A stretch of 64,000 nt of DNA from Streptomyces sp. NRRL S-646. GTDB lineage: Bacteria > Actinomycetota > Actinomycetes > Streptomycetales > Streptomycetaceae. The stretch is taken from positions 45,385 through 109,384 of the forward strand of contig NZ_JODC01000032.1 in assembly GCF_000720765.1 (NCBI RefSeq), given 5' to 3'. The notes below the pieces were generated by a model that saw only the letters and a program-made list of their open reading frames with translations, searched no databases and was not told where the DNA came from. This document shows, piece after piece, positions 6,151 through 42,580 of the stretch; the stretch's first letter is position 1; each line of letters opens with the position of its first letter. Both the position numbers and the translations under genes were made by a program.

Positions 6151-6259
6151 CGTATCTTCGTCTACGCTGCTGGGCGTATACGCGGGAGCGGAAATCGGCC
6201 GGGGTGCACCGGCCGGCGTCGCGCACGGGTGACCATGCGCAGGGGGAGGCGTGCAGGCG

Positions 6260-7642
6260 ATGGGGAACGGCGCGGACCTGCCGCGGCGGATCGGTGTCTA
6301 CACCGTCGAGCGAGAGCTGGGCGCGGGCGGTATGGGGACGGTCTACCTCGCCCGGTCGCGGGGCGGTCGGGCCGTCGCGGTGAAGGTGGCCCGCCCGGAG
6401 CTTGCGGCCGACCCGCACTTCCGCGAACGGTTCCGCGCAGAGGTCGAGGCCGCCCGCAAAGTCGGCGGTTTCCACACGGCTCCGGTCGTGGACGCCGATC
6501 CCGACGCGGAGGCGCCCTGGCTGGCGACCGCGTACGTCCCCGGACCGACCCTCGCAGAGCTGATCAGAGGTCAAGGTCCCATGGGCGAAGGGGAGTTGAG
6601 GTCCCTCGGTGCAGCGCTCGCCGAGGCGCTCCAAGCCGTCCACGCCTGCGGGCTCGTACACCGCGATCTGAAGCCGGGCAACATCATCATGGCCGACGAC
6701 GGCCCACGCGTCCTCGACTTCGGCATCGCGCGGGCCGTGGAGTCCACCCGGCTGACCGCCACCGGGGCGGCCTTCGGCACTCCCGGATACCTCGCGCCCG
6801 AGCAGGCGCAGGGCGACGAAGTCGACGGTGCCGCCGATGTGTTCGCGCTCGGGGCCGTGCTCGTCTCGGCGGCCGGAGGCAGCGCCTTCGGCACCGGCAC
6901 GCCCCTGGGGCTGATGTACCGGTCGGTGCACGAGCCTGCGGATCTCTCCGCGCTGCCGGAGCAGTTGCGGTCGGTGGTCGCCGCCTGCCTGTCGAAGGAT
7001 CCGGCCGGCCGTCCCACGCTCGAGGCGCTCCTGGTCTCGCTCAGCGCGGACCCGGCCCCGGACCCGACCACGCTCGCGCTCGCCACGCCCGACCCGCCGC
7101 GCGTCGCGCCGCCCGTCCCGGTCGTGCCTCTCGCCGATCCCGGCCGCGCCGACGAGCCTCCGCTGCCCGCCCCGGCCGGAGGCTCGCGCACGCGCCGCGT
7201 GATCACCCTGCTGATCGTGGCCGCGGCCGTGACGAGCGCGCTGGTGGGCGCCATCCTCGCCCTCACCCGGCACGGGGACGACAACAAGGCCGGTGGACCC
7301 TCCGCAACCGCTTCGGACACCCGGCGGTCCACATCGCAGGCCTCCGCTCCGCCTTCCACGCCGGGATCGTCCCGGGTGAGCGCAGCCCCCAGGGACCGGG
7401 TCACCGTCGGGGTGACCGCCAAGAGCGGCCAGAGCTGGATCTCGGCGAAGGACCACGACGGCCGAGTGCTGTTCGACGGACTGCTGCACAACGGCGAGAC
7501 CAAGAACTTCACGGACAAGAACCGGATCACCCTGGTCCTTGGCGACGCCTCCGCCGTCGGGCTCGTGGTCAACGGCAAGGAGGTCACTGACGACTTCGAG
7601 GCCGGCCAGGTCCAACGTCTCACCTACGGCAGAGACGACTAG
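6260..7642 (+). CDS. Transmembrane Ser/Thr protein kinase with RodZ-C-like outer domain
   Basis: A membrane kinase of about 460 residues. The kinase domain spans about residues 10-265: glycine loop GAGGMGTVYLA, lysine in AVAVKVARPE, catalytic loop VHRDLKPGNI, and DFGIA followed by the activation segment and PGYLAPEQ. A Pro/Ala linker and one membrane helix (VITLLIVAAAVTSALVGA, about residues 315-335) follow. The outside C-terminus (about 370-455), with SWISAKDHDGRVLFDGLL and a late VVNGKEV, looks like the DUF4115/RodZ C-terminal beta domain. All kinase residues are present, so it should be active. GGAGG at 6245-6249 fits the ATG at 6260 better than the GTG at 6251. A cell-envelope sensing role is inferred. 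Confidence 0.85.
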   Translation: MGNGADLPRRIGVYTVERELGAGGMGTVYLARSRGGRAVAVKVARPELAADPHFRERFRAEVEAARKVGGFHTAPVVDADPDAEAPWLATAYVPGPTLAELIRGQGPMGEGELRSLGAALAEALQAVHACGLVHRDLKPGNIIMADDGPRVLDFGIARAVESTRLTATGAAFGTPGYLAPEQAQGDEVDGAADVFALGAVLVSAAGGSAFGTGTPLGLMYRSVHEPADLSALPEQLRSVVAACLSKDPAGRPTLEALLVSLSADPAPDPTTLALATPDPPRVAPPVPVVPLADPGRADEPPLPAPAGGSRTRRVITLLIVAAAVTSALVGAILALTRHGDDNKAGGPSATASDTRRSTSQASAPPSTPGSSRVSAAPRDRVTVGVTAKSGQSWISAKDHDGRVLFDGLLHNGETKNFTDKNRITLVLGDASAVGLVVNGKEVTDDFEAGQVQRLTYGRDD

Positions 7643-24711: not shown

Positions 24712-25125
24712 ATGGCCACACCGCCGGTACCGCCTCGACCGCCCGGCCCGCCGGGTGACACACCGCCAGCGGGCGGCGGGTTCGGACCACCTCCGACCTA
24801 CGGCGACGGGCAGCCGTCCCCGCCACCGCCCAGGCGACGGCGCAGCCCGCTCTTCGTCCTCCTGGTCGCCCTCGCGGCGGTCGCCGCAGTGGCCGTCGTC
24901 GTCCTGATGGCCTCCGACCACGACGACTCGCCCGACAAGAAAACACCCAACGGCACCGGTGCGAGCTCCGGCCGCACACGGTCGCCGTCCCTGAGCATTC
25001 CGACGGAACTGCCGAGCAAGCTGCCCAGCAGACTGCCGTCGAAGCTGCCCAGTGGACTGCCGAGCAGTGTCCCGAGCGACCTTGAATCGCTGATTCCTTC
25101 CTTGGGGGACGTCGACCTGCCATGA
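24712..25125 (+). CDS. Small single-pass membrane protein with Pro-rich N-terminus and LPS repeats
   Basis: A 137-residue protein not assigned to a known family. Residues 1-45 are rich in Pro and Gly, followed by an RRRR stop-transfer cluster and one membrane helix (FVLLVALAAVAAVAVVVLM, about residues 45-65). The outer part ends in a short repeat of K/R/G-LPS units (about residues 97-122). The charge pattern suggests the N-terminus is inside and the repeat outside. Ribosome-site support is weak. It lies alone between xylA and the 8-bp tandem repeat; no function is proposed. Confidence 0.6.
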   Translation: MATPPVPPRPPGPPGDTPPAGGGFGPPPTYGDGQPSPPPPRRRRSPLFVLLVALAAVAAVAVVVLMASDHDDSPDKKTPNGTGASSGRTRSPSLSIPTELPSKLPSRLPSKLPSGLPSSVPSDLESLIPSLGDVDLP

Positions 25126-25169
25126 CGCGAGGTCAGGCACCGTGAGAAGACACCCCACGATGCCAACGG

Positions 25170-25241
25170 CCAAGCGGCCAAGCGGCCAAGCGGCCAAGCG
25201 GCCAAGCGGCCAAGCGGCCAAGCGGCCAAGCGGCCAAGCGG
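25170..25241. repeat. Nine perfect tandem copies of an 8-bp unit (CCAAGCGG)
   Basis: Seventy-two bases of uninterrupted CCAAGCGG repeats, preceded by one imperfect copy. The unit length is not a multiple of three, and no convincing gene crosses it. It lies 45 bases after the small membrane protein and about 490 bases before the Gly-rich protein. Slippage would change its length by 8. Confidence 0.95.
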
Positions 25242-25586
25242 CGAAGGGGAGTGCAGGGGGTGACTGTCCGCAGGCTCGGCCCGGATACTGCGGACAGGTA
25301 GTTCGTCTTCTCCATGACCCTGCCCGGGCTGCTCGTCGTGCTGACCCTGCTGGCCTTCGGCCGCGTGCGCAGGCGGTTATTGACGGTCTGCATCTTCGGT
25401 CGCCTGCGGACCCATGCGGAGTGGGCTCGATCGCGTCCTCCAGGGAGGCCGGGAGGGCTGAGGGATGTCGGCTCCGACTGTTCGCCATTTCGTTGGTGGG
25501 TCGACGGGTCGGTGGCCACATCTGATCGGTGAGTGCGCGGCGCGGTCGAGGTGCTCGGTGCCCGGCAACTGCCCTGCTCGTTGCAC
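25242..25586. other. Intergenic stretch without a recognised gene
   Basis: Between the tandem repeat and the promoter of the Gly-rich operon. Frames on both strands look like noise and lack ribosome sites. Confidence 0.5.
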
Positions 25587-25615
25587 TTGCGCCGTCCATG
25601 CCAAGGCTCTATAAC
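25587..25615 (+). promoter_or_regulatory. Vegetative-type promoter of the Gly-rich/FHA/kinase operon
   Basis: The -35 TTGCGC (25587-25592), a spacer of exactly 17 bases and the -10 TATAAC (25610-25615) fit a principal sigma factor promoter. The start of transcription would be near 25622, leaving a leader of about 110 bases before the Gly-rich gene. Confidence 0.6.
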
Positions 25616-25730
25616 GTCTCCAGCAGGTATCGGCGGGGATGGCCGGAAATGGCAGTTGCCGCCGACCAGGGGGGATCCTCGGCTCCGTCGCGATCGGCAT
25701 CAGTGCCCCCGGAGCGATGGAGACCGAACC

Positions 25731-27134
25731 ATGACCAACGACGCATATCGTGCTGCCCTGACCCGCCTGGCCGTCGACCCGGCCTTCCGTGCCGAACTCG
25801 ACGGCGACACCGGCGAGGTTGCGCGAAGACTCGGCCTGTCGCTCGCCCAGGTCGCCGAACTCCGCTCCCTCCGCGTCGAGTCCGCCACCGACGGGGGACC
25901 GGCCGCTCTCGACCCACGGCTGTCCAAGTCGTCCCTGTTCTTCGGAAGCGCGGCGCACGCGCTGGCGCATCACGACATCACCGCTGACCACACCGTCCCG
26001 GTCGACCACCACGCCGAGGTGACGCACGAGGCCTCCACGACCCACGCCGTCCCGGCTGAGCAGGTCTCAGGCGATCACGATGCCGGTGCCCCGGCCTCCA
26101 CCGAGCAGGGCTACGACCTGTCAGGTCCCGCCGGGGGCCAGGAGGGCGCCGCCGGCCTGGACACGGCAGCCACCGGTACCCACAGCCTGCTCGGCGGCCC
26201 CCTGCTGGACCGGTCCCCGGCCGAAGTGGCCGGCGAGCTCGGCCAGGTGGGCAACTTCGGTGAGTTCGGAGGGTTCGGGGACCATGTCGGCGGTCGCGCC
26301 GAGGGGGGCTTCGGTGACTTCGGCGCCGGGGGCGACGGCGGGTTCGGCGGCGCCGAAGGGGACTTCGGCGGGTTCGGTGGCGGTGCCGACGGCGGGTTCG
26401 GCGGTGGTGGCCTTGGCGACGGCGGCTTCGGTGACGGCGGTGCGGGTTCCGGTGGGTTCGGCGACTTCGGGGGCCATGGCGGCTTCGGCGGTGCCGGCGG
26501 GGAAGGCGGCGGGGACGCCGGTCACTTCGGCCACGGTGGCATCTACGACCGTGACGGCGGCGAAGGCGGCGGCGGCGAGGGCGGCGGCGGCGAGGGTGGC
26601 GGCGGCGAGGGTGGCGGCGGCGAGGGCGGTGGCGACTCGGAGAACAGCAACCGTCCCAGTGGTGGTGGTGGCCATGGCGGCGGTGGCGAGGGTGGTGGCG
26701 GTGGTGGCGAAGGTGGTGGCGACCCCGAGAACACCAACCGTCCCAGTGGTGGTGGCCATGGCGGCGGTGGCGAGGGTGGCGGCGGCGGTGGCGAAGGTGG
26801 TGGCGACCCCGAGAACACCAACCGTCCCAGTGGTGGCGGTGGCCACGGCGGCGGTGACGGTGGGGGCGACGGAAACGGCGGAGGCAGCCACGAGAACATC
26901 GGTCGGCGTCCCGGCGGTGTCGGTGAGCCCGGCGGTGGTAACCGCATCATCGTCCAGGGTGGCCTGCCCGCCTCGGGCGAGGGTGGCAACGGTGCTCACA
27001 TCATCGTCCAGGGTGGCCTGCCCGCCTCCGGCCTCGGAAACGCCGCCACGCACCTGCCGGACTCGGGCCCCGCCGCGGAAGGCGACGCAGGTTTCGACGG
27101 CGGAACGTTCGCCAGCGGTTCCGGCGCAGGCTGA
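25731..27134 (+). CDS. Gly-rich repeat protein with leader-like N-terminus (possible substrate/precursor)
   Basis: A 467-residue protein. Residues 1-50 (MTNDAYRAALTRLAVDPAFR… with ARRLGLSLAQVAELRSL) form a compact helical segment like leader regions of processed peptides. An Ala/His/Thr-rich stretch follows. From about residue 165 the chain is mostly Gly with Phe-Gly (GGFGDFGG) and then GGGGEGG repeats. Three modules of about 29 residues share P/S-EN-x-NRPSGGG, and a fourth is diverged (HENIGRRPGG). Near the end IIVQGGLPASG occurs twice. GGAG is nine bases before the ATG, and the next gene starts eight bases after the stop. No family was recognised; a role as substrate of the downstream protease and kinase is inference. 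Confidence 0.7.
   Translation: MTNDAYRAALTRLAVDPAFRAELDGDTGEVARRLGLSLAQVAELRSLRVESATDGGPAALDPRLSKSSLFFGSAAHALAHHDITADHTVPVDHHAEVTHEASTTHAVPAEQVSGDHDAGAPASTEQGYDLSGPAGGQEGAAGLDTAATGTHSLLGGPLLDRSPAEVAGELGQVGNFGEFGGFGDHVGGRAEGGFGDFGAGGDGGFGGAEGDFGGFGGGADGGFGGGGLGDGGFGDGGAGSGGFGDFGGHGGFGGAGGEGGGDAGHFGHGGIYDRDGGEGGGGEGGGGEGGGGEGGGGEGGGDSENSNRPSGGGGHGGGGEGGGGGGEGGGDPENTNRPSGGGHGGGGEGGGGGGEGGGDPENTNRPSGGGGHGGGDGGGDGNGGGSHENIGRRPGGVGEPGGGNRIIVQGGLPASGEGGNGAHIIVQGGLPASGLGNAATHLPDSGPAAEGDAGFDGGTFASGSGAG
26635..26890 (+). repeat. Coding repeat of about 87 bp (EN-x-NRPSGGG module)
   Basis: Three near-identical modules start near 26635, 26723 and 26810, each with AACCGTCCCAGTGGTGG followed by Gly/Glu codons. 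A diverged fourth (HENIG) begins near 26890. They are in frame with the Gly-rich protein. Confidence 0.8.
26945..27028 (+). repeat. Two copies of a 30-bp direct repeat, 54 bases apart
   Basis: Identical 30-base segments begin at 26945 and 26999 (CATCATCGTCCAGGGTGGCC…). They encode IIVQGGLPAS twice, separated by a short Gly/Asn linker. Confidence 0.85.
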
Positions 27135-27142
27135 GCCACCGC

Positions 27143-28909
27143 ATGCTCTGCCGTGTCTGCCGCGTCCACGTGCGGCGCGACTTCCCGTACTGCCTGCACT
27201 GCGGTACCCCGCGCCGGGGTGCCGCGTCGACCTCGTTCGCCGCACCCCAGTTGCGCGGCCTCGACGAACCCACGCTGCTCGTCTCGCTGACCGCCCCGGT
27301 CACCACGCTGGGCCGGGGCGAGGACAACGACGTGGTCCTGTCCGACACCAGCGTCTCGCGCCGCCACGCCCGCATCGTCCGCACCGCTGAGGGCTTCCGG
27401 ATCGAGGACCTGGACTCCTTCAACGGCACCGCCGTCGGCGGCGTCGACCTGCACGGCGGTGCGGCCGGCCTCGCCGACGGCACCGAGCTGTCCGTCGGCG
27501 ACGTACGCCTGGTGTTCGAGCAGCCTCGCGACACCCGGATCGGCTCGCGCACGATGGTCGTCGGCACCCAGCTGACGCAGCTGCCCACCGCCGGACAGGC
27601 CGGGCAGGAGGAGGCCCCCGAGGCGAACGGTCCGCTCACCGCGCGCCCCCGCCGCCGTTCGGGCTGGGCCCTCAAGCAGATCCCGACCGAACGCGGCGCA
27701 CCCCGCTGGGTGCTCAACAGCACCAGAACAGGGCGCTATCTCGAACTGGACGAGCGCCAGGTCTTCCTGTGGCACGCCCTTGACGGCGATAACACCGTAC
27801 GGGACCTGCTGTTCGCCTACGCCGACCGCTACGGCGAACTCGCCCTGCCCCGCATCGAGTCCGCGCTGGCCGCGTTCGCGGACGCCGGGCTGCTGCGTGG
27901 CCTGCCCGGGCGGCCGGAGGAGGAGCGGCCGAAGGGCTGGCGGCGGGTGGCGCGTGCCGTATACCGGGCGCTGCTGAAACTGGAGGTGTCCGTCCCCGGC
28001 CTCGACCGGCTGGTGACCCGGCTCTACCAGGCTTTCGGCTGGCGGCTGTTCACCCGGACCGGGGTGCTGCTCGCCTGGCTGTCGGTGACCGGTGGCCTCG
28101 CCGCGTTCTTCGCCGCGCAGGGGCGGCACCATCTACTGGACTTCGGCGGGGCGGGCGTGTGGGGCCCGGTCGTGCTGGCCGCCGGATATGTGAGCGCGCT
28201 GCTCGTCCACGAGCTCACGCATGCGCTGGCCGTGAAGTCGTACGGCCGCAAGGTCAGGCGCGGCGGGTTTCTGCTGATGATGGGCATGCCGTTCGCGTTC
28301 GTGGACACCAGCGACATGTGGTTCGGCTCCCGCTGGTCGCGGGTCGTGGTGGCCCTGTCCGGGCCGCTGTCCACGGCGGCGCTGGCCGGCTGGTGCGCCA
28401 CGGGCGCGGCCCTGCTGCCCGCGGGACCCGCCTCGGCCGTCCTTTACCACCTCGCCTTCGGCCTGTATCTAAACACCCTCTACAACTTCAACCCGCTGAT
28501 GCCGCTGGACGGTTACCAGGCGCTGACCGACGCCCTGCGGGTGCCCCGGCTGCGCGAGGAGGCGAGCGCCTACTTCCGCACGGGCCTGTGGCGAGACCTG
28601 CGGGCGGGCAACCGGCCCGGCCCCCGCCAGGCAGGCCTCGCCGCCTACGGCCTCGCGGTCGTCGTAGGCACCTACGGCTTCCTCGGCCTCGCCCTGCTGG
28701 CCTGGCGCTCCCGCATCGGCGACCTGCTGGACGGCCGACTGGCCGAGCCGTGGCCCACGGTGATCGAGGCGGCCGTGGTTGCCCTGGTCGCCTTCCCGGT
28801 GTGGTCCGCGCCCGCCCGCTGGCTGCTGCGCCGGGTACGGCGCCGCCGGGACGCGAGGGACGTACCGCGGGGGGCCGGGCTCCCCGCGCCGGTGGAGGGG
28901 ACGGCATGA
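27143..28909 (+). CDS. Zinc-ribbon / FHA / PqqD-like / M50 membrane metalloprotease fusion
   Basis: A 588-residue membrane protein. A zinc ribbon comes first (residues 2-24, two Cys-x-x-Cys pairs), then an FHA domain (about 45-130, with TLGRGEDNDVVLSD, SVSRRHARI and DLDSFNGT). Residues about 185-255 (TGRYLELDERQVFLW, HALDGDNTVRDLLF) look like a PqqD-type winged helix, the domain that binds leader peptides in RiPP systems. The C-terminal membrane part has the M50 zinc motif VHELTHAL and a second-site NPLMPLDGY. FHA binds phosphothreonine, so a phosphorylated partner from the adjacent kinase is likely. Processing or export of the Gly-rich protein is inferred. It overlaps the kinase gene by ATGA. 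Confidence 0.8.
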   Translation: MLCRVCRVHVRRDFPYCLHCGTPRRGAASTSFAAPQLRGLDEPTLLVSLTAPVTTLGRGEDNDVVLSDTSVSRRHARIVRTAEGFRIEDLDSFNGTAVGGVDLHGGAAGLADGTELSVGDVRLVFEQPRDTRIGSRTMVVGTQLTQLPTAGQAGQEEAPEANGPLTARPRRRSGWALKQIPTERGAPRWVLNSTRTGRYLELDERQVFLWHALDGDNTVRDLLFAYADRYGELALPRIESALAAFADAGLLRGLPGRPEEERPKGWRRVARAVYRALLKLEVSVPGLDRLVTRLYQAFGWRLFTRTGVLLAWLSVTGGLAAFFAAQGRHHLLDFGGAGVWGPVVLAAGYVSALLVHELTHALAVKSYGRKVRRGGFLLMMGMPFAFVDTSDMWFGSRWSRVVVALSGPLSTAALAGWCATGAALLPAGPASAVLYHLAFGLYLNTLYNFNPLMPLDGYQALTDALRVPRLREEASAYFRTGLWRDLRAGNRPGPRQAGLAAYGLAVVVGTYGFLGLALLAWRSRIGDLLDGRLAEPWPTVIEAAVVALVAFPVWSAPARWLLRRVRRRRDARDVPRGAGLPAPVEGTA

Positions 28910-30471
28910 GCCAGGACAAGGACACCGAGGGCGGCTGGGCCGTACCCGGCTACGCGGCCGTCCGGACGCTGGGAGAGGGAGCCGGCGGCCGGGTCGTCCT
29001 CGCCCGGCACACCGCGACCGGCGTCCCCGTCGCCGTCAAGTACCTGAGTGAACGCCTGCGCGCGGACCCGGAGTTCCTGGCCCGCTTCCGCGCCGAGGCC
29101 CGGCTGCTCGGCGAGCTGCGGCACCCGTTTGTGGTGCGGCTGTACGAGTACGTCGAGGCACGCGCCGGCGCCGCGATCGTGATGGAGGCCGTGGACGGCG
29201 TCAGCCTGCGCCACCTGCTGCGCCGCCACGGGGCGACCGGCCCCGAGGCAGCGCTCGTCCTGCTCAAGGGCTCCCTCCTGGGGCTGGGCGCGGCCCACAC
29301 GGCCGGGGTGGTGCACCGCGACTACAAACCGGAGAACGTCCTGGTCCGCGCCGACGGCACCAGCGCGCTCGCCGACTTCGGCATCGCGGTGCGCAGCGGC
29401 CGGGAGACCGACGTCGCGGGCACGCCCGCTTACATGGCGCCGGAGCAGTGGAACGGCGAGCCCGCCGGACCGGCGGCCGACGTCTACGCGGCCTCCGCGG
29501 TGTTCTTCGAGTGCCTGACCGGCCGACGGCCGTTCCCCGGGGACGACATGACCGCGCTGCGCCTGCAGCACCTGCGCGCACCGGCCCCGCTGGACGACGT
29601 ACCCGCGCCGGTGCGCGGACTGCTGCGCGCGGGCCTGGCGAAGGACCCGGCGGACCGGCCCGGCGTCGAGGCGTTCCTCGCCGACCTGGAACGGTCCGCC
29701 ACCGAGGGCTACGGCGCCGGCTGGGAGGAGCGCGGCCGCCGCCGACTGGCCGAACTCGCCGCGCTGCTGGCCCTGTTGTTCCCGTTCACCGCGACCGCGA
29801 CACTGGACGGGCCGGCCACCGCGCTCACCCTGCTGGGCCGGCTGAAGCGCGGGGGATGGAAGGTGGCGACCGGTGGGGTGGCCGCGCTGGCGGTCGTCGC
29901 GGGCGGAGCGACGTACGCGACGGGCCGCCCGCACGACACGTCCACGACGGTGGCGAGTTCGACCCCCGCGCCGGTCAACTCACCGACAGTACGGGTCACT
30001 TCACCCTCCTCATCCCCTTCGGTGAGCAGTGCCCCGCCCACAGCCGACACCTCGCCCACCACCACCCCCTCGGACAGCCCGTCGGCCTCGCCCACGCCGT
30101 CCACGGAGACGACCGCACCGGCCGGGACGCCGACGACCGAGTCCCCAGGCCCGCCCACCCCGGGCACGGTCACCCTCACCATCGGCTCCTGGCAGCGTGG
30201 ACAGAAACCCGGCACGCTCGTCGCGGCGGTGACCGTCGAGACGACAAGCACCGGTCCGCTGACCGTCACCGCGAACTACTACGTCGACACACCCGCCGAC
30301 CCGTACGGCTCCCAGGCCCAGTCCCTGTCCGGGAGCACGCGGTACGACCTGACCTTCGAGGCCGATTTCTCCAACCACCCGTGCCGAGGGACCTGGATGG
30401 TCTCGCTCAGCAGCGACCCGGCGGCAGCGAACGGTCCCCAGACGGCCTCCCTGGACGCACCGCCGTGCTGA
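28906..30471 (+). CDS. Ser/Thr protein kinase with one membrane helix and outer domain
   Basis: A 521-residue kinase. The kinase domain spans about residues 10-265: GEGAGGRVVLA, lysine in PVAVKYLSE, catalytic loop VVHRDYKPENV, ADFGIAVR and GTPAYMAPEQW. All catalytic residues are present, with Tyr replacing the usual Leu after HRD. A cytoplasmic helix-rich linker and a membrane helix (about 325-345) follow, then a Ser/Thr/Pro-rich stalk and an outer domain (about 425-521) with one late Cys pair. Its start overlaps the FHA/M50 stop. The FHA domain next door is a natural reader of its phosphorylation. What it senses is unknown. Confidence 0.85.
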   Translation: MSQDKDTEGGWAVPGYAAVRTLGEGAGGRVVLARHTATGVPVAVKYLSERLRADPEFLARFRAEARLLGELRHPFVVRLYEYVEARAGAAIVMEAVDGVSLRHLLRRHGATGPEAALVLLKGSLLGLGAAHTAGVVHRDYKPENVLVRADGTSALADFGIAVRSGRETDVAGTPAYMAPEQWNGEPAGPAADVYAASAVFFECLTGRRPFPGDDMTALRLQHLRAPAPLDDVPAPVRGLLRAGLAKDPADRPGVEAFLADLERSATEGYGAGWEERGRRRLAELAALLALLFPFTATATLDGPATALTLLGRLKRGGWKVATGGVAALAVVAGGATYATGRPHDTSTTVASSTPAPVNSPTVRVTSPSSSPSVSSAPPTADTSPTTTPSDSPSASPTPSTETTAPAGTPTTESPGPPTPGTVTLTIGSWQRGQKPGTLVAAVTVETTSTGPLTVTANYYVDTPADPYGSQAQSLSGSTRYDLTFEADFSNHPCRGTWMVSLSSDPAAANGPQTASLDAPPC

Positions 30472-30526
30472 CCACACTCCCGAGGGCTCCGAGAGCCACT
30501 CCCCGCCGCGACGAGAACGGATCGAC

Positions 30527-32179
30527 ATGACGACAGCCACCACAGTGGCCGGCCGGCCCCTGTCCGGCTGGTCAAGGCACACGCGCCACGGCACCTGGTA
30601 CGCCCTGCTCCCCGCCCGGTCAGGCGAACGGACCCTCGGCGCGCTGCGCATCGACCGCGCCCTGCTGGCGCCCGACGGCACGCGCGAGCGCCTGGCGGCC
30701 ATGGTGCTCGCCACGGCGAAGCTCCGGCTGCCCGGACTGCTCGGCACGGTCGACCTCGTGGCCGAGGCCGGTGAGGTGTGGCTGCTCACGGCCCGGCCGC
30801 CGGCCCCCACCCTGGCCGACGTCCTGGCGTCGGCAGGCGGCCCCCGCCCGGACGCGGGCAGCGCGGCCAGCATCCTCAACGAGACCGCGCAGACCCTCCT
30901 CGCCCTGCGCACGGCAGGCCTGACCCACGGCCCACTCGGCCCCGACACCATCGTCATGGCCCCGGACGGTGTCGCCCTGCTGGCCGGGGCGGAGACGGGC
31001 GCGGTGCTGGGCGACGCGGCCGCCGTACCGGTGTCGGGCGACGCGCCGCACGCCGACCGCCGGGCAGCAGTCGCCACAGCTGCCTGGGCCGCCCTGGCCC
31101 GCACCCTCGGCGACGCCTGGGCGCAGCCCGAAACCCCCGCGGCGGAACTGTTCGTTCGCTGCTCCGCCATCGCCGAGTCGCAGGGGCTGGCGGCGGCCCG
31201 GGCCGAACTGGTCGCCCAACGCGCGGCGCTCCCGGCGGACTTCCTGCGCCGCACGGCGCTCCGCGCGGCGGCGGCCGCGTCGACCCCGGACTTCGCGCCG
31301 CCGAAGGCACCGGCACCGTCCGTCGCAGCGACTCCTGGTCGCCCGGCTCAGCGGACGGACCCTCACCCGGCGCCGAACGCAACCGACTCCGACCCACGCC
31401 CCACCGTCCCCGAAGATCCTGCTGCCGCACCGGCCCGTTCCTCCCGCCCCTCAGCCGCCGTCGCCCAACCCGCCACGGCGGACCACGCCCGCACCGCCGC
31501 GGCCTCGGACCCGGGAGCCTCCCCGGCTCCCCCCGGACCGACCCCTTCAGCCGCCGCCGACCAGCCCACCACGGTCGGCCGCACTCACCGTCCCCATGCA
31601 GCGGACCCCCAGGCGACCGTCCTCGGCAAGCGCAACCATGTCGCCCTGCCTCCGGTGGACGCAGGGGAGGACTCCGACGGGATCCTGCTCCGGTTCGGGC
31701 CCGGGGTCCCGGTGGAGGAGCAGGACGTCCTGTGTGCCCGATGGCGGACCGAGGCAGCGGTTCCAGCCTCCCCGCGCTCGCGCCGCAAGCGCCGGGGCTG
31801 GATCGTCACCACCGCCGTCGTCGCGATCGCCGCCGTCCTGCTCTGGCTGCTGGTTCGCCCGGCCCCCGCTCCCGCGATCGTCGCTGTCCGGGTCCAGGCC
31901 CCCGCAGGGCCGTTGCACTGCGGTCAGACGGCCGACCTGGTCGGTGTCGTCACCACCGACGGGCACGCGGGCCCGGTCAATTACCAGTGGCTGCGCGCGG
32001 ACGGTCAGGATTCGGGCGAGCTCGTCCGCACCGCCCACCGGGGTGAGCGCCGGGTCAGGGTGCACCTGCGCTGGACGGTCCGCGGTTCCGGTCGCTTCCG
32101 GGGGACCGCCCGCCTGCGAATCGCGCACCAGCCGGCCCCGATGGAGGCGAGGGCGAGCTTCACCTACGTCTGTCCTTGA
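30527..32179 (+). CDS. Pseudokinase-like membrane protein
   Basis: A 550-residue protein. Residues about 15-245 follow the layout of a protein kinase but lack its chemistry. The catalytic loop reads THGPLGPDTIVM where HRDxKPxN is expected, and the DFG position reads LAGAE. A long Pro/Ala-rich low-complexity linker (about 260-390), an RRKRR cluster and a membrane helix (WIVTTAVVAIAAVLLWLLV, about 425-445) lead to a small outer beta domain with two Cys (HCGQTADLVG … FTYVCP). It follows the active kinase by 55 bases, so an allosteric partner or scaffold is likely. Assignment as a pseudokinase is by motif layout only. Confidence 0.6.
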   Translation: MTTATTVAGRPLSGWSRHTRHGTWYALLPARSGERTLGALRIDRALLAPDGTRERLAAMVLATAKLRLPGLLGTVDLVAEAGEVWLLTARPPAPTLADVLASAGGPRPDAGSAASILNETAQTLLALRTAGLTHGPLGPDTIVMAPDGVALLAGAETGAVLGDAAAVPVSGDAPHADRRAAVATAAWAALARTLGDAWAQPETPAAELFVRCSAIAESQGLAAARAELVAQRAALPADFLRRTALRAAAAASTPDFAPPKAPAPSVAATPGRPAQRTDPHPAPNATDSDPRPTVPEDPAAAPARSSRPSAAVAQPATADHARTAAASDPGASPAPPGPTPSAAADQPTTVGRTHRPHAADPQATVLGKRNHVALPPVDAGEDSDGILLRFGPGVPVEEQDVLCARWRTEAAVPASPRSRRKRRGWIVTTAVVAIAAVLLWLLVRPAPAPAIVAVRVQAPAGPLHCGQTADLVGVVTTDGHAGPVNYQWLRADGQDSGELVRTAHRGERRVRVHLRWTVRGSGRFRGTARLRIAHQPAPMEARASFTYVCP

Positions 32180-32240
32180 GGCGCCTCTCCTTGGGCATGT
32201 TGCCGGCGTGAGCCGCGTCGCATCGGAGCGGGCGAGGGTT

Positions 32241-32262
32241 GCTATGCAACGAGTTGCATAGC
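32241..32262. promoter_or_regulatory. PadR operator (perfect palindrome)
   Basis: GCTATGCAAC and GTTGCATAGC flank a two-base centre, giving perfect 10-base arms. The site lies 12 bases before the PadR start. The TATGCAA/TTGCATA core is the classical PadR-family site, so autoregulation is very likely. Confidence 0.85.
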
Positions 32263-32274
32263 AGGATCGACGGC

Positions 32275-32844
32275 ATGGCGCTCGAACACGCGATCTTGGT
32301 GTCGCTTCTGGAGAAGCCAGGATCCGGCTACGAGCTGGCCCGGCGCTTCGAGCGGTCCATCGGCTACTTCTGGACCGCGACCCACCAACAGATCTACCGC
32401 GTGCTCAAGCGCATGGAGAACGACGGCTGGGTCGACGTGCGGGACGTCGCGCAGCAGGGCCGGCCGGACAAGAAGGAATACTCCGTCGCCGACCTCGGCC
32501 GGGCCGCACTGTCCTCCTGGTTGCAGGATCCGATCGAACCGGAGAGCGTCCGCCACGACCTGGCCGTGAAGATCCGCGGCGCCGCCTTCGACGACCCGGT
32601 CGCCCTGATCCGCGAGGTGGAGCGGCACCGCCAGGCGCACCGGGACCGGCTGGCGCACTATCTCGCAGGAGAGGCGCGCGACTTCACGCCCGAAGCAAGC
32701 ACGGCCGGTCCTGCTGCGCCGCTCGACGCGGAGCGAGAGCTCCAGCACGTCGTCCTGCGCGGCGGCATCGCGTACGAGCGGATGATGATCGACTGGCTGG
32801 ACGACGTGCTCGCCACGCTGGCCCGGTTCGGTCCCGGCCGCTGA
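32275..32844 (+). CDS. PadR-family transcriptional regulator
   Basis: A 189-residue regulator. The N-terminal PadR winged helix (residues 1-90, LEHAILVSLLEKPGSGYELA, HQQIYRVLKRME and DKKEYSVAD) is followed by a C-terminal helical dimerisation domain. The start is ATG at 32275 with AGGA upstream; an earlier ATG would place the palindromic operator inside the gene. It likely represses itself and perhaps the acyl-CoA dehydrogenase gene 102 bases downstream, in response to a phenolic or lipophilic ligand. Confidence 0.88.
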   Translation: MALEHAILVSLLEKPGSGYELARRFERSIGYFWTATHQQIYRVLKRMENDGWVDVRDVAQQGRPDKKEYSVADLGRAALSSWLQDPIEPESVRHDLAVKIRGAAFDDPVALIREVERHRQAHRDRLAHYLAGEARDFTPEASTAGPAAPLDAERELQHVVLRGGIAYERMMIDWLDDVLATLARFGPGR

Positions 32845-39331: not shown

Positions 39332-39366
39332 TTGTGAGGCATCAAGGTCCGTGTAGGCTGACGTAA
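39332..39366 (+). promoter_or_regulatory. Promoter of recombinase operon, probably leaderless
   Basis: The -35 TTGTGA (39332-39337), 16-base spacer and -10 TAGGCT (39354-39359) place the transcription start at about the ATG of the first recombinase. No ribosome site precedes it. Confidence 0.45.
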
Positions 39367-40832
39367 TGAAACAAGTGTTCTATTCGTCCTTAGGTTGGGA
39401 GTCCTGGGGGCTTGAGTTCAAACCTGCCATCCCTGAGGGAATGCCACTGCTCTTCGAGAACGACCTGCTCTTCGAGGACGAAGGCGGGGTGCGTGAGATC
39501 ACAGCGGTGAACCAATGGGCGTGCGAGCTGCCGACCCGAGGAGTTCCGGCCGCCAACTCCTGGCACACGTACGTGCGCGCGGTCCGCGAGTGGAAGGACT
39601 TCGCGGCAGTGCACGGGGTCGGCCTATTCGGGAGCCGGGACCGCTTGAAGGCCGTGCTCGGCACTTACGCGGTCCACCGGGGATCGGGCCCTCTGAAGGA
39701 GCGATTCGCGTCGTCGATGTGGAACCAGAGCATGTCGATCCTCAGCCAGTTCTACGACTGGGCGAGCGACCGCGGGTACGCCGCGCACGCGCCGTTCACC
39801 TACAAGGAGAGCGTCCAGCTGTTCGAAGGCGGTGCGACCACGCGCCGGGTGAACCAGGCTCGCAGGCGCCAGCCGAAGGAGCACGTGACCGTCAAGTATC
39901 TGATGGACGACTTCGCGGACCTGTTCGTCAAGGGGCTGGGGCGGCTGCAGCCGGACGGTTCGGAGGAATGGGGCTACCGGGGGCGGGAGATCGCGCGGAA
40001 CTCGGCGGTGGGCAAGTTCGTACTGTCGTCGGGGCTTCGGTCGCAGGAGTTCTCGTACATGCTCGCGTGCGAGGTTCCGCCGCTGCCGCGCCAACGGACG
40101 GATGTCCCACAGGTGCTGCCTGTGCCGGAGGGAATCACCAAGGGCAGCAAGTTCCGTGAGTCGTGGGTGAGTTACGACGTCCTGTCGGACCTGCACAGCT
40201 ATCTGGAGCTGGAGCGGGCGCTGTCGGTTCAGGCGTCGTCATGGATGCCGCCGGCACGCTGGGGCGAGCCGCTGATGGTGACAGAGTTCGATGCACGCGG
40301 CGGCCGGGTCAACGGGACCTGGACGACATGGGAGACGATGAAGCCTGTGGACCGGCGCAGGCTGGTGGGCCCCGGAGGCGGGTCGATGCTGCTGTCCGTC
40401 TGGGGCGAGGGGCGGCCATTCACCGAGTGGGCGAAGGTGTTCGAACGGAACGCGGACCGGCTCCGGGAGCGCTACGAGCCGCGTTTCCCGCATGTCTGGC
40501 CGCACCGGATCCGTCACACGATGGCGATGGCCACGATGAAGCGCCTGGTCGCGGGCTACTACGCGCAGGCCGCGCGGCTGGTGGCGGACACGGACGAGAA
40601 CGCGGCACTGGCGCTGTACCTGCGGACGACGGAGCCGATTCTCGTGCTGCGCGACCTGTTGGGGCACGCGAGTTCGTTGACCACGGAGAAGTACCTGCAC
40701 CGCCTGGACACCACACGCATCTTCCGTGAACTGTACGAGCGCAGCGGGCTGGAGGCCGGACTGCTGGCCGCCGCACGGGATCACGAGCTGGAGTCCGAGT
40801 TTGGCGAAGACCCGGCGGGGGTGGGGGTCTGA
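39366..40832 (+). CDS. Tyrosine recombinase 1 (TnpA-like)
   Basis: A 488-residue site-specific recombinase. The catalytic domain shows Arg I in SSGLRSQEFSYM (about residue 226), the His-x-x-Arg pair in WPHRIRHTMAMA (about 382), and the region LLGHASSLTTEKYLHR, giving the late His and nucleophile Tyr near residue 450. All catalytic residues look present. The N-terminal 170 residues contain a SAM-like core-binding domain. Its stop overlaps the next start by one base (TGATG). It should carry out strand exchange during integration and excision. Confidence 0.9.
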   Translation: MKQVFYSSLGWESWGLEFKPAIPEGMPLLFENDLLFEDEGGVREITAVNQWACELPTRGVPAANSWHTYVRAVREWKDFAAVHGVGLFGSRDRLKAVLGTYAVHRGSGPLKERFASSMWNQSMSILSQFYDWASDRGYAAHAPFTYKESVQLFEGGATTRRVNQARRRQPKEHVTVKYLMDDFADLFVKGLGRLQPDGSEEWGYRGREIARNSAVGKFVLSSGLRSQEFSYMLACEVPPLPRQRTDVPQVLPVPEGITKGSKFRESWVSYDVLSDLHSYLELERALSVQASSWMPPARWGEPLMVTEFDARGGRVNGTWTTWETMKPVDRRRLVGPGGGSMLLSVWGEGRPFTEWAKVFERNADRLRERYEPRFPHVWPHRIRHTMAMATMKRLVAGYYAQAARLVADTDENAALALYLRTTEPILVLRDLLGHASSLTTEKYLHRLDTTRIFRELYERSGLEAGLLAAARDHELESEFGEDPAGVGV

Positions 40833-42580
40833 TGCCCGCGACGGTGACCGAGCCCGGCGTGGTGCCGCCGGCGATCAGTGCGGTGTTCACAGACGGCCGC
40901 TCCTGCACAATACAGATCAACAAGTCCAGGAACCCGTTGCTGGCCCGGCAGCTGCTGCTGGGACTGGCCGACTTGGTCAAGCCGCACGGCGACCTCGACA
41001 GGCAGAGCAGCGTCGAGGGTTACTGCACCGGTGTGCGCTACTTCTGCGACAAGCTCGCCGAGTCAGGATTCACCGGCACAGCAGCGGATCTGACGCGCGG
41101 GGTGCTCGCTGAGTTCTGGCTGGGCCGCCCACACCCGATCAATGAGTCCAAAGCCCGGGCGATGCTCCAGCGACTCGACGACAACCACGCGGTCCTGAAA
41201 CCGGACGTGCGTGCGCTTATCGACGGTCGTGACTTCCATCGCACGCCTGTCAGCCAGCCGCTGAAACCCTACAGCGAAGGTGAGTGGGCTCGACTGACCG
41301 AGGTGTGCCAAAGGATCGTGAAGGAGGACTACGCCGCCTATCGGCAGGCGCTGGAAGAAGCAGCCCAGGGCTGCAACCCCTACGAGAACAGCTGGAGTCT
41401 GAACAACGTCCGCTGGGCGATGGCGACATGGGGTCCGGAGAGGGCCGAGGCCGTGGTCGACTGGCGGATCCCTGGCCATCCGTCCGGTCTGGGGCGGAGG
41501 CTTCCCTACTCGATCGAGAAGGACACCGAAGTCCTGTTCCCGAGCTCGGGCACGGTCATCGCCTACCAGCTCCTGCTGGGCGTCTACACCGGCATCGTGC
41601 CGGACGGCCTGGCGGATCTGGGCCTGGACGACATCGACTGGGCCGGCGAGACAACCGTTCTGCTCGACTACGTGAAGGGCCGCACGGCCCCAGAGAGCCT
41701 GGTGCTGTCGGCACGTGCGAGCCGGCTGTTGCAGCAGTGGCTCGACCACTCCTCTCTGGGCCGGAAGCTCGCTCCCGAGGCGGACCGGGGCGCGCTGTGG
41801 CTGCACTACTCAACGGCGGCCAAGCGGTGGCGCACCACACGGGAACACTGGTCCCGAATAAAGGACTGGGTGCGATGGACCGGGCTGAAGGACGATACCG
41901 GCCAGCCGTTGTCGATCCACCGGCACCGGATCCGTACCAGCAACGCTGCGATGCGTGAGCGGCGGTCGTGGCAGGGTAGTCGACGTTCGACGATCGACCC
42001 GAACCGCAGCCCGAGGGTGGAGGGGGACAACTACGTCACGTTGGGGACGGCGGCCCAGCGAGAGATGGTGAACGACATCATCGCCGACGCCCAGGGCGAC
42101 ATGCTCAGGCGGGCCCAGCCGCCGATGGTGCTGACCGAGGAGTCGCTGGCCAAGCTGGTACGTGAGTTCCCCGACCGCGTCGCGGCACTGGAGCTGACGG
42201 ACGAGGTGCTGACCGAACTCGTCGGTGGCGAGCGGGACGTGTTCACCGCGGCGTGCGCGGACCAACTGTCGGGCCTGCACGGACCCAAGGGCAAGCCGTG
42301 CCCGGCCAGGCCGTGGGTGTGCCTGCCGTGCCCGCTGGCCCTGTTCGCCCCCCGCCACCTGCCCAATCTGCTGCGGCTGCGGGCGTTCTTCTCCGCCCGC
42401 TGGCAGGAGATGACCTCCGCCGAGTTCATGGCCCAGTTCGGCGTCTATGCCCAGCGCCTGGACCAGATCCTGGACCCGGGCGTGCACTTCAGCGCCGAGG
42501 CGCTGGCCCGGGCCAGCGCCGAGGTGGCCGATACCGACGACGAGCTGCCGCTGCGGGCGGAAGAGAGGACCGTACGATGA
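40832..42580 (+). CDS. Tyrosine recombinase 2 (TnpB-like), first catalytic Arg not evident
   Basis: A 582-residue recombinase-like protein. A core-binding-like N-terminal half is followed by a catalytic-type domain. The box holding Arg I reads YTGIVPDGLADLGLDDI, with Val-Pro where Arg-Pro is expected. The second box is SIHRHRIRTSNAA and a possible Tyr is in EGDNYVTLG. A C-terminal Cys-rich patch (CPARPWVCLPC) may bind zinc. It overlaps the third recombinase by ATGA. It may be a structural or regulatory subunit rather than a strand-cutting enzyme, as inferred from the missing Arg. Confidence 0.75.
   Translation: MPATVTEPGVVPPAISAVFTDGRSCTIQINKSRNPLLARQLLLGLADLVKPHGDLDRQSSVEGYCTGVRYFCDKLAESGFTGTAADLTRGVLAEFWLGRPHPINESKARAMLQRLDDNHAVLKPDVRALIDGRDFHRTPVSQPLKPYSEGEWARLTEVCQRIVKEDYAAYRQALEEAAQGCNPYENSWSLNNVRWAMATWGPERAEAVVDWRIPGHPSGLGRRLPYSIEKDTEVLFPSSGTVIAYQLLLGVYTGIVPDGLADLGLDDIDWAGETTVLLDYVKGRTAPESLVLSARASRLLQQWLDHSSLGRKLAPEADRGALWLHYSTAAKRWRTTREHWSRIKDWVRWTGLKDDTGQPLSIHRHRIRTSNAAMRERRSWQGSRRSTIDPNRSPRVEGDNYVTLGTAAQREMVNDIIADAQGDMLRRAQPPMVLTEESLAKLVREFPDRVAALELTDEVLTELVGGERDVFTAACADQLSGLHGPKGKPCPARPWVCLPCPLALFAPRHLPNLLRLRAFFSARWQEMTSAEFMAQFGVYAQRLDQILDPGVHFSAEALARASAEVADTDDELPLRAEERTVR

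Follow-up and report, generated by a model that had tools for sequence, protein, structure and literature searches.

A conserved gene set of actinomycetes joins an NHLP-type leader on interchangeable repeat proteins to an FHA-RRE-site-2 protease, a kinase and a pseudokinase

Why does the gene of a long glycine-rich repeat protein share an apparent operon with genes for a membrane protease, a kinase and a pseudokinase? This question is raised by a 64,000-nt stretch of Streptomyces sp. NRRL S-646 (contig NZ_JODC01000032.1, positions 45,385 to 109,384 of the forward strand; hereafter the window), for which an initial annotation had suggested a system in which phosphorylation, an FHA domain, a PqqD-like domain and an M50 protease act together on the glycine-rich protein. 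We refer to the genes as gene 1 (the repeat protein or 'cargo', headed by a leader), gene 2 (FHA, PqqD/RRE and M50 site-2 protease; RRE stands for the recognition element of ribosomally synthesized and post-translationally modified peptides, RiPPs), gene 3 (kinase) and gene 4 (pseudokinase); their coordinates are listed in Table 1. We found that the four genes are a real, conserved unit. The overall idea of the initial annotation is largely upheld and can be sharpened, while its interpretation is partly supported. The parts are known, and their combination seems undescribed.

To follow the set into other genomes we used one profile for each part and a sample of 37 loci, composed of the window and 36 loci obtained by scanning contigs with the gene 2 alignment. 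The genes of the relatives were called by a crude GC-frame script, and their starts are partly guessed. The loci span Streptomyces, Micromonosporaceae, Actinomycetospora, Jatrophihabitans, metagenome-assembled genomes (MAGs) of Catenulisporales and one Chloroflexi MAG; they are not independent, as Streptomyces contributes 16 (with the window among them and S. diastatochromogenes counted twice) and Catellatospora 8. Gene 2 is present in 37 of 37 loci and the leader was observed within 29; six of the eight misses are cut at a contig end (L012, L014, L028, L029, L031 and L037) and in the other two the leader lies on another contig (L040, L041). The kinase was found within 32 of the 37 loci and further out for L036 (in L130) and L047 (in L086), in the latter case ∼2.5 kb past the last cargo and on the opposite strand. 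The outside domain of gene 4 was detected in 32 of 37 as well, the misses being L015 and L029, where the contig ends, and L039–L041. Cargo-2-3-4 is the commonest gene order (two Hamadaea loci, L033 and L044, carry an insertion ahead of gene 4); Actinomycetospora shows kinase-4-cargo-2 and Chloroflexi cargo-2-4-cargos with the kinase reversed. In the flanks of 14 Streptomyces loci (two on the downstream side only) no gene family is common to more than three. Apart from the set itself, families common to at least 3 of 17 representative loci are MFS transporters, short-chain dehydrogenases, kinases and LuxR-type regulators, and also a glycosyltransferase, YbjN, a histidine phosphatase and others; these recurring neighbours come mostly from Micromonosporaceae with a common neighbourhood. 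The expected co-occurrence of the four genes was thus confirmed with the part profiles, as the set recurs across several genera in various orders, and because of this recurrence the set is more than a product of chance. In L045 (S. diastatochromogenes ATCC 21481) and L097 the matches to genes 2, 3 and 4 are split into pieces, perhaps by sequencing errors.

The distribution over whole genomes was analyzed in the same way. Within 345 genomes of the class, the gene 2 profile gave seven matches (three full length and four to the PqqD-M50 part only) and the leader profile eight. The three strong leader matches occur in the same genomes as the full-length gene 2, two weak ones (∼5e-6; G192 and G334) both stand beside a PqqD-M50 protein without FHA, and three weaker ones (5e-4 to 7e-4) are found in genomes without a gene 2 match; the other two PqqD-M50 genomes (G110, G247) gave no leader match. 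The cut-off of the NHLP model was exceeded only by G192 and G334 among 340 genomes, 22 of which show any match at E ≤ 0.001. For Streptomyces, 9 of 295 genomes contain the leader at E ≤ 1e-5: seven strong matches, each beside gene 2, and two weak ones, for which the 14 kb examined do not contain gene 2. For 23 loci (L038 and L045 were left out), the pairwise distances of any one of the four parts correlate with those of the others at 0.86–0.98, which fits co-inheritance, and shared host descent would produce the same pattern.

Across the family, gene 1 has a common architecture, namely a leader of ∼70 residues from the nitrile-hydratase-like (NHLP) clan, with an L(X)4L-type motif at its end, fused to dissimilar low-complexity cargos. 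The model of the Os1348-type NHLP clan, NF038399, scores 26 bits with the whole window protein and 30.7 bits with the leader alone (cut-off 40), and 17 of 17 aligned leaders, the window's included, match it at E ≤ 0.1 (best 3e-9), a similarity at the clan level only; some of the 17 match other NHLP or nitrile hydratase models as well. The leader-like N-terminus assumed in the initial annotation is supported by these matches, with the window's score below the cut-off, and by the L(X)4L-type motif. When the leader profile was compared to the PDB, the top match was 8vd6, a designed repeat protein whose E of 2e-5 is a sum over tiny stretches and which we took as chance, followed by 6lk7, an 85-residue chain named nitrile hydratase alpha (E 0.008), further nitrile hydratases and, more weakly, NHLP and LigA-type leader chains. 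AlphaFold2 predicts four helices (2–52) and subsequent disorder for the first 95 residues of gene 1, with a pLDDT of 83–90 over residues 1–50 and below 50 after residue 58 (mean 67, pTM 0.45). The leader domain ends in R-[LIV]-[ST]-[KR], which is readable as L(X)4L; the conserved end is R-L-S-K-S-x-L, and a Gly-Gly is not conserved. For the NHLP precursor MprE7, the L(X)4L motif and helix 1 are described to bind the RRE of MprC (PMC12455567; this and the further papers given by PMC number are cited from excerpts), and a Gly-Gly cleavage site is described at the end of the leader in NHLP precursors (PMC2887384). We counted the motif in 47 leaders (L085, L093, L094, L096 and L097 were left out as repeats). 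The strict pattern R-[LIVM]-[ST]-[KR]-x-x-[LIVF] occurs in 36 of the 39 leaders that share a locus with gene 2 or a PqqD-M50 relative, the other three being one residue longer, and this frequency is favoured because the profile used to collect the leaders itself contained the hinge and motif. Eight leaders come from other loci: four have the motif, all from gene 2-bearing genomes, and four lack it, two of them from gene 2-bearing genomes and two without gene 2 in the 14 kb examined. We rejected the idea of another leader protein in the genome of the window, since the next match reaches only E 0.03 with the leader profile.

Beyond the hinge, no common feature was recognised between the lineages. 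The cargo part measures from about 25 to more than 3,000 residues, and whole leader-bearing proteins mostly 184–3,120 residues, with one of 92. Streptomyces cargos are Gly-rich repeats (in the window's gene 1, 84-base repeat units are found at 26613–26856); those of Micromonosporaceae, in which we place Catellatospora, Hamadaea, Rhizocola and Catelliglobosispora, are Pro/Asp-rich or calcium-repeat-like and mostly carry a C-terminal membrane span. Leader-bearing proteins of 3,120 and 2,216 residues occur in Actinomycetospora, the Catenulisporales MAGs have His/Asp/Glu repeats or the 92-residue form, and the Chloroflexi genome encodes six leader-bearing proteins. In this Chloroflexi MAG (L047, L085, L086) one gene 2 is accompanied by one leader-bearing cargo upstream and five downstream, and one cargo shows an OCRE-domain match of 57 bits. 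A C-terminal membrane span is predicted in 11 of 19 cargos and in none from Streptomyces. In 38 of 39 cargos there is no Cys after residue 75, the exception being the second Hamadaea cargo (L092) with 15 Cys; the cut-off cargo of L037 also shows some. This second leader-bearing protein of the Hamadaea MAG (L092, 7435–8211) consists of many CNGH-type repeats and lies away from gene 2, near a gene whose end resembles, by eye, a LuxR-type regulator. Compared to the window, 12 other Streptomyces cargos show a mean identity of 84% over residues 1–76, ungapped, and of 54% and 68% in two further parts, with ∼0.43 gapped columns per aligned one. Within the cores, a unit EN-x-R(R)P is repeated 2–6 times in 13 of 13 Streptomyces cargos. 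As judged from these sequences, the cargo is interchangeable behind the leader. Gly-richness, on which the initial annotation had laid weight, proved incidental, as the lineages carry dissimilar cargos, and we rejected it as a defining feature on this comparison.

For gene 2 we aligned the window protein with 19 relatives (n = 20). At E ≤ 0.01 all 20 members match FHA and M50, in line with the earlier assignment of both domains, and 16 of 20 match PqqD. The window protein itself reaches 54 bits for FHA, 23.9 bits for M50 (cut-off 27.2) and 22.9 bits for PqqD (cut-off 23.4), or 27.3 bits when the PqqD piece is scored alone. Excised PqqD pieces match PF05402 in 10 of 10 cases at E ≤ 1 (best 4e-8, window 4.6e-6). 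Most PDB matches of this part are partial and to designed trefoils, and TbiB1 (E 1.3) is the sole near-full-length one; the PqqD assignment stands for the sequence, and its outcome is confined to that level. The FHA profile matches EmbR, GarA and FhaA (TB39.8) chains. We take GR, SRxH and NG to be the phospho-Thr contact motifs of FHA domains, and on this reading the FHA domain of gene 2 keeps the residue set of a phospho-binding FHA domain in 20 of 20 sequences. GarA and OdhI possess a self-binding FHA switch, which the invariant Thr137 behind the domain recalls, and this residue is a candidate phospho-switch. At the N-terminus a zinc ribbon (CxxC…CxxC) was recognised by eye. The protein has four hydrophobic segments and, together with its HExxH motif and distal Asp, the sequence features of an M50/site-2 protease. 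NF041824, the model of the daptide leader peptidase, matches residues 185–524 of the window protein with 145.7 bits (cut-off 300) and all 20 aligned proteins (best 4e-44). After this daptide intramembrane metalloprotease, the YydH/LiaK epipeptide protease is next-nearest to the protease half, and the database protein closest to gene 2, at 95% identity, belongs to Streptomyces longisporus.

The kinase and pseudokinase genes of the initial annotation could both be verified. Gene 3 is a PknB-like kinase (PF00069, 157 bits), in which the glycine loop, the Lys, HRDYKPxN, DFG and PEQW are kept in 13 of 13 sequences. With one hydrophobic segment at residues 281–299 (hydropathy 1.68) it is, by its sequence, a membrane-type Ser/Thr kinase with intact catalytic motifs. 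Gene 4 of the window gave no Pfam or NCBIfam match on its own, while its profile aligns with that of gene 3 (hhalign 96.5%, E 1e-9). Its first ∼160 residues align with the gene 3 kinase and with kinase structures that include PknA and PknE, and both HRD and DFG are broken in 10 of 10 sequences. The pseudokinase part went undetected in the Jatrophihabitans MAG and two Actinomycetospora, which keep the linker and outside domain. The sole PDB profile match of the outside domain is T4 Hoc (E 7e-4), an Ig-like protein. The linker is poorly conserved apart from the motif around Thr364. We observed T-x-[VILMF]-[GAD]-[KRNG]-R in 27 of 32 linkers, compared to 0.49 expected from shuffled sequences; the five without it are L020 (a wrong open reading frame, the right one having the motif), L035 and L036 (near variants by eye), L045 (frameshifted) and L047 (another motif). 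In the three relatives with the undetected pseudokinase part the motif is multiplied: it is present five times in L038 and twice in L037, and in A. endophytica five times if Ala is allowed at one place (a widened pattern) and once otherwise. From this pattern, the gene 4 pseudokinase offers, in its linker, the likeliest docking partner for the FHA domain, a point missed by the initial annotation.

Table 1. Features of the four-gene locus (window coordinates)
Feature	Coordinates	Strand	Support
Gene 1, cargo: NHLP-type leader and Gly-rich repeat core, 467 aa	25731..27134	+	Open reading frame; leader profile match E 5e-33 from same ATG
Gene 1 leader, residues 1–69: four predicted helices (2–52), then R-L-S-K-S hinge	25731..25937	+	NF038399 match residues 9–65; AlphaFold2
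L(X)4L motif LSKSSL, residues 64–69, presumed RRE-binding strand	25920..25937	+	Leader motif count
Gene 2: zinc ribbon, FHA, PqqD/RRE, M50 site-2 protease, 588 aa	27143..28909	+	Profile matches and conserved residues
FHA domain, residues 47–127	27281..27523	+	G57 R58 S72 R73 H75 N94 G95 in 20/20
Thr137, invariant behind FHA domain, candidate phospho-switch	27551..27553	+	20/20
PqqD/RRE domain, residues 189–248	27707..27886	+	PF05402 in 10/10 pieces
HELTH (HExxH) active site, residues 356–360	28208..28222	+	H356 E357 H360 in 20/20
Asp456 of gene 2 protease	28508-28510	+	20/20
Gene 3: Ser/Thr kinase with hydrophobic segment, C-terminal part presumed outside, 521 aa	28906..30471	+	PF00069 157 bits
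Gene 4 (550 aa): pseudokinase part, linker, membrane span and presumably external Ig-like domain	30527..32179	+	
Thr364 of gene 4 in A-T-V-L-G-K-R, candidate FHA docking site	31616..31618	+	Invariant in 11/11 aligned
Gene 4 membrane span, residues 425–443	31799..31855	+	Hydropathy 2.59
Gene 4 Ig-like domain, two invariant Cys	31889..32173	+	Both Cys in 12/12

The linkage, the leader type, the L(X)4L motif, the intact FHA, protease and kinase residues and the conserved Thr motif, which is multiplied in three relatives, were observed here. As the best explanation we propose, at even odds, a kinase-gated system of leader recognition and membrane proteolysis for long repeat proteins. In such a system gene 1 would supply the cargo, with a folded NHLP-type leader ending in the L(X)4L strand. 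The membrane kinase of gene 3 would phosphorylate one or more Thr of the cytosolic gene 4 linker and perhaps also Thr137 of gene 2. By its FHA domain the gene 2 protein would then dock on the phosphorylated linker, which would bring the protease to the signalling complex, and by its PqqD/RRE domain it would grip the leader. The site-2 protease might then cut near the hinge behind the leader, or at the membrane anchor of the cargo where there is one, and the cargo would be freed. The steps of binding, phosphorylation and cutting, the topology and the destination of the cargo are inferred from conserved sites and precedents. In mycobacteria, PknB phosphorylates the tail of the pseudokinase MviN and thereby recruits the FHA domain of FhaA (PMC12599244), which by analogy is a direct precedent for the step from kinase to linker to FHA. 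This set resembles ours in having a kinase, a membrane protein with a pseudokinase and a phosphorylated tail, and a docking FHA protein; it controls peptidoglycan synthesis, whereas the FHA protein described here is an RRE-protease with a leader-bearing partner. For the proteolytic step, the daptide RRE-protease is stated to remove the leader, a statement that comes without an assay in the excerpts of PMC10036551. A further likeness, of principle only, exists to type VI secretion. There, the membrane kinase PpkA and the FHA effector Fha control protein export; the FHA part of gene 2 matches VI_FHA in 19 of 20 sequences, but no type VI genes were noticed at the loci.

Several observations weigh against this mechanism, in addition to the favoured motif count mentioned above. 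It is weakest with regard to the site of cutting and to a possible export of the cargo. Streptomyces cargos lack a membrane span, and the segment behind the hinge is at best weakly hydrophobic (best 11-residue mean 1.3–1.5 in two cargos, negative in L039 and L088), a substrate that a site-2 protease would have to accept. For Os1348, the namesake of the clan, two papers (PMC12636437, PMC7726476) describe full-length protein inside cells and no Gly-Gly site; leader removal is for this reason not to be taken for granted. The Catenulisporales MAG loci L039–L041 contain gene 2 and neither the kinase nor gene 4 in the DNA searched, and gene 4 of Chloroflexi shows a different Thr motif, TVIE/TVID. 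Finally, a second place in the window's genome, which reads by eye like nitrile hydratase alpha, scores 7.2e-6 under NF038399 compared to 8.6e-6 for the gene 1 leader, and therefore NF038399 alone is no proof of a RiPP leader.

The main rival is an apparatus for export or surface display, in which the leader would be a secretion signal, the four proteins with further partners would constitute a regulated membrane gate that places the cargo on the cell surface, and cutting would be secondary or a trimming of the leader. We consider this possible but unlikely. Some cargos look extracellular, given the lack of Cys beyond residue 75 in 38 of 39 and a TSP3 repeat in the L046 cargo (20 bits, below the cut-off of 25 bits), and yet by eye none starts like a Sec signal. 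The 11 of 19 cargos with a C-terminal span have 2–3 Lys/Arg behind it and 0–1 in the 20 residues before; a span followed by Lys/Arg is the pattern of surface anchors. Type VI and type VII secretion also involve FHA proteins and pseudokinases. The pseudokinase YukC/EssB is mentioned in a secretion context (PMC12599244). However, neither an ABC transporter nor a secretion ATPase is among the families common to at least 3 of the 17 representative loci, where MFS transporters recur in some, and gene 2 is a protease-type membrane protein and no channel.

A RiPP pathway, in which the repeats would be multiple core peptides that are modified by enzymes encoded elsewhere and excised after leader removal, appears improbable to us. 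The NHLP-type leader and the RRE-protease are RiPP parts, and the EN-x-R(R)P units of the Streptomyces cargos and the CNGH repeats of the second Hamadaea cargo could be read as cores. On the other hand, the cores are nearly Cys-free and up to 3,120 residues long, the Gly-Gly site is not conserved, and no modifying family was recognised among the recurring neighbours (crude gene caller; ten examples named by Pfam). A peptidase-ABC transporter with a modification enzyme is likewise not found among the families common to at least 3 of 17 loci, a result that covers neither rarer nor unlinked genes. Our cargos share with NHLP/proteusin and Os1348-type precursors the leader clan, a hypervariable C-terminal part and the presence of several precursors in some genomes, but differ in their missing conserved Gly-Gly and their size; NHLP RiPPs have a short core rich in Cys/Ser/Thr, which these mostly 184–3,120-residue proteins do not contain. 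With the daptide protease MpaP/DapP (NF041824), gene 2 shares a PqqD/RRE domain followed by an M50 membrane protease, and it differs in scoring 145.7 against the 300-bit cut-off, in the added zinc ribbon and FHA domain and in its presumed substrates, which are large NHLP-headed proteins instead of short precursors. Daptide precursors have an ELExMEAP-like motif and a C-terminal Thr (PMC10036551), a combination that is absent, by eye, from gene 1 and 18 relatives. We thus rejected a classic NHLP RiPP or daptide cluster, and because some defining features are missing the system is filed under neither; its mode of action is probably similar to that of a leader-directed maturation pathway. Near a different PqqD-M50 gene, a short open reading frame with an ELEPLEAP-like motif and a C-terminal Thr (L084, 11983–12192) looks by eye like part of an ordinary daptide cluster.

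The PqqD-M50 clusters of G192 and G334 (L081, L082) are a further comparison. They resemble the window set in that a PqqD-M50 protein is accompanied by an Os1348-clan leader (64 and 63 bits, above the cut-off) with an I(X)4L motif. They differ in lacking the FHA part and matches to the gene 3 and gene 4 profiles, and their protease is fused to cyclic-nucleotide-binding and AhpC/TSA domains. A weakly RimK-like protein also stands beside the leader in L081 (7462–12851) and L082, perhaps a different type of RiPP cluster.

Regulated intramembrane proteolysis for signalling, with the cargo as a sensor or messenger whose fragment acts in the cell, is more improbable still: a membrane kinase with a pseudokinase, a site-2 protease and the C-terminal spans of Micromonosporaceae cargos would suit it, but the cargo sequences are wholly different between lineages and several cargos occur per genome, with six leaders in Chloroflexi. 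That unrelated neighbours share an operon in Streptomyces by chance is barely credible and was rejected, as the linkage across the 37 loci, in several genera and one MAG of another phylum, with several orders and differing Streptomyces flanks, speaks against it. Other origins were dismissed as well: a plasmid module (no plasmid match), a phage module (8 viral stretches matched a pattern, 0 by tblastn) and phage defence (the PADLOC matches are 34 kinase-type models, all to gene 3).

Regarding the layout in the window, whose genome comprises 10.7 Mb in 163 contigs, we could reproduce the coordinates of the four co-directional genes and their spacings of 8, -4 and 55 bases. The 'one good promoter' placed before them was not recovered: scanning 25100–32500 with the sigma-70 consensus gave no promoter. 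As many streptomycete promoters deviate from this consensus, the negative is weak. A tandem array at 25162–25246 (8-base unit GCCAAGCG, 10.8 copies, 97% match) lies ∼500 bases upstream of gene 1. Elsewhere in the window we noticed a further gene for a Ser/Thr kinase, this one with a RodZ_C domain (6251–7642), adjoining a DEAD-box helicase gene, and a pair of adjacent open reading frames of 488 and 582 aa (39366–42580) with no Pfam match at E ≤ 0.001.

In the PMC literature, a search whose coverage excludes most subscription papers, we found, among the matches listed, neither the whole set nor an FHA-RRE-site-2 protease, and no paper combining 'PqqD' and 'FHA domain'; PMC12257519 was rejected as a match, since FHA denotes a peptide motif in the excerpt of that paper. 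We tentatively propose, at somewhat less than even confidence, a previously undescribed phospho-gated sorting system of actinomycetes and at least one Chloroflexi lineage, in which interchangeable giant repeat proteins carry a re-purposed natural product-type leader as their address tag. A receptor-like kinase/pseudokinase pair would switch on the FHA-RRE-site-2 protease, which would read this tag and mature or display the cargo. To our knowledge, leader/RRE recognition is known only from peptide precursors. If the proposal is true, such recognition would steer whole proteins as well, and the timing of a leader protease would be set by the signal of a membrane kinase. The proposal would offer testable pairs, a phospho-Thr364 peptide with the FHA domain and leader residues 1–75 with the RRE, and the leader tag might carry engineered cargos. 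Many actinomycete proteins that are now named merely 'FHA domain-containing protein' would thereby gain a role.

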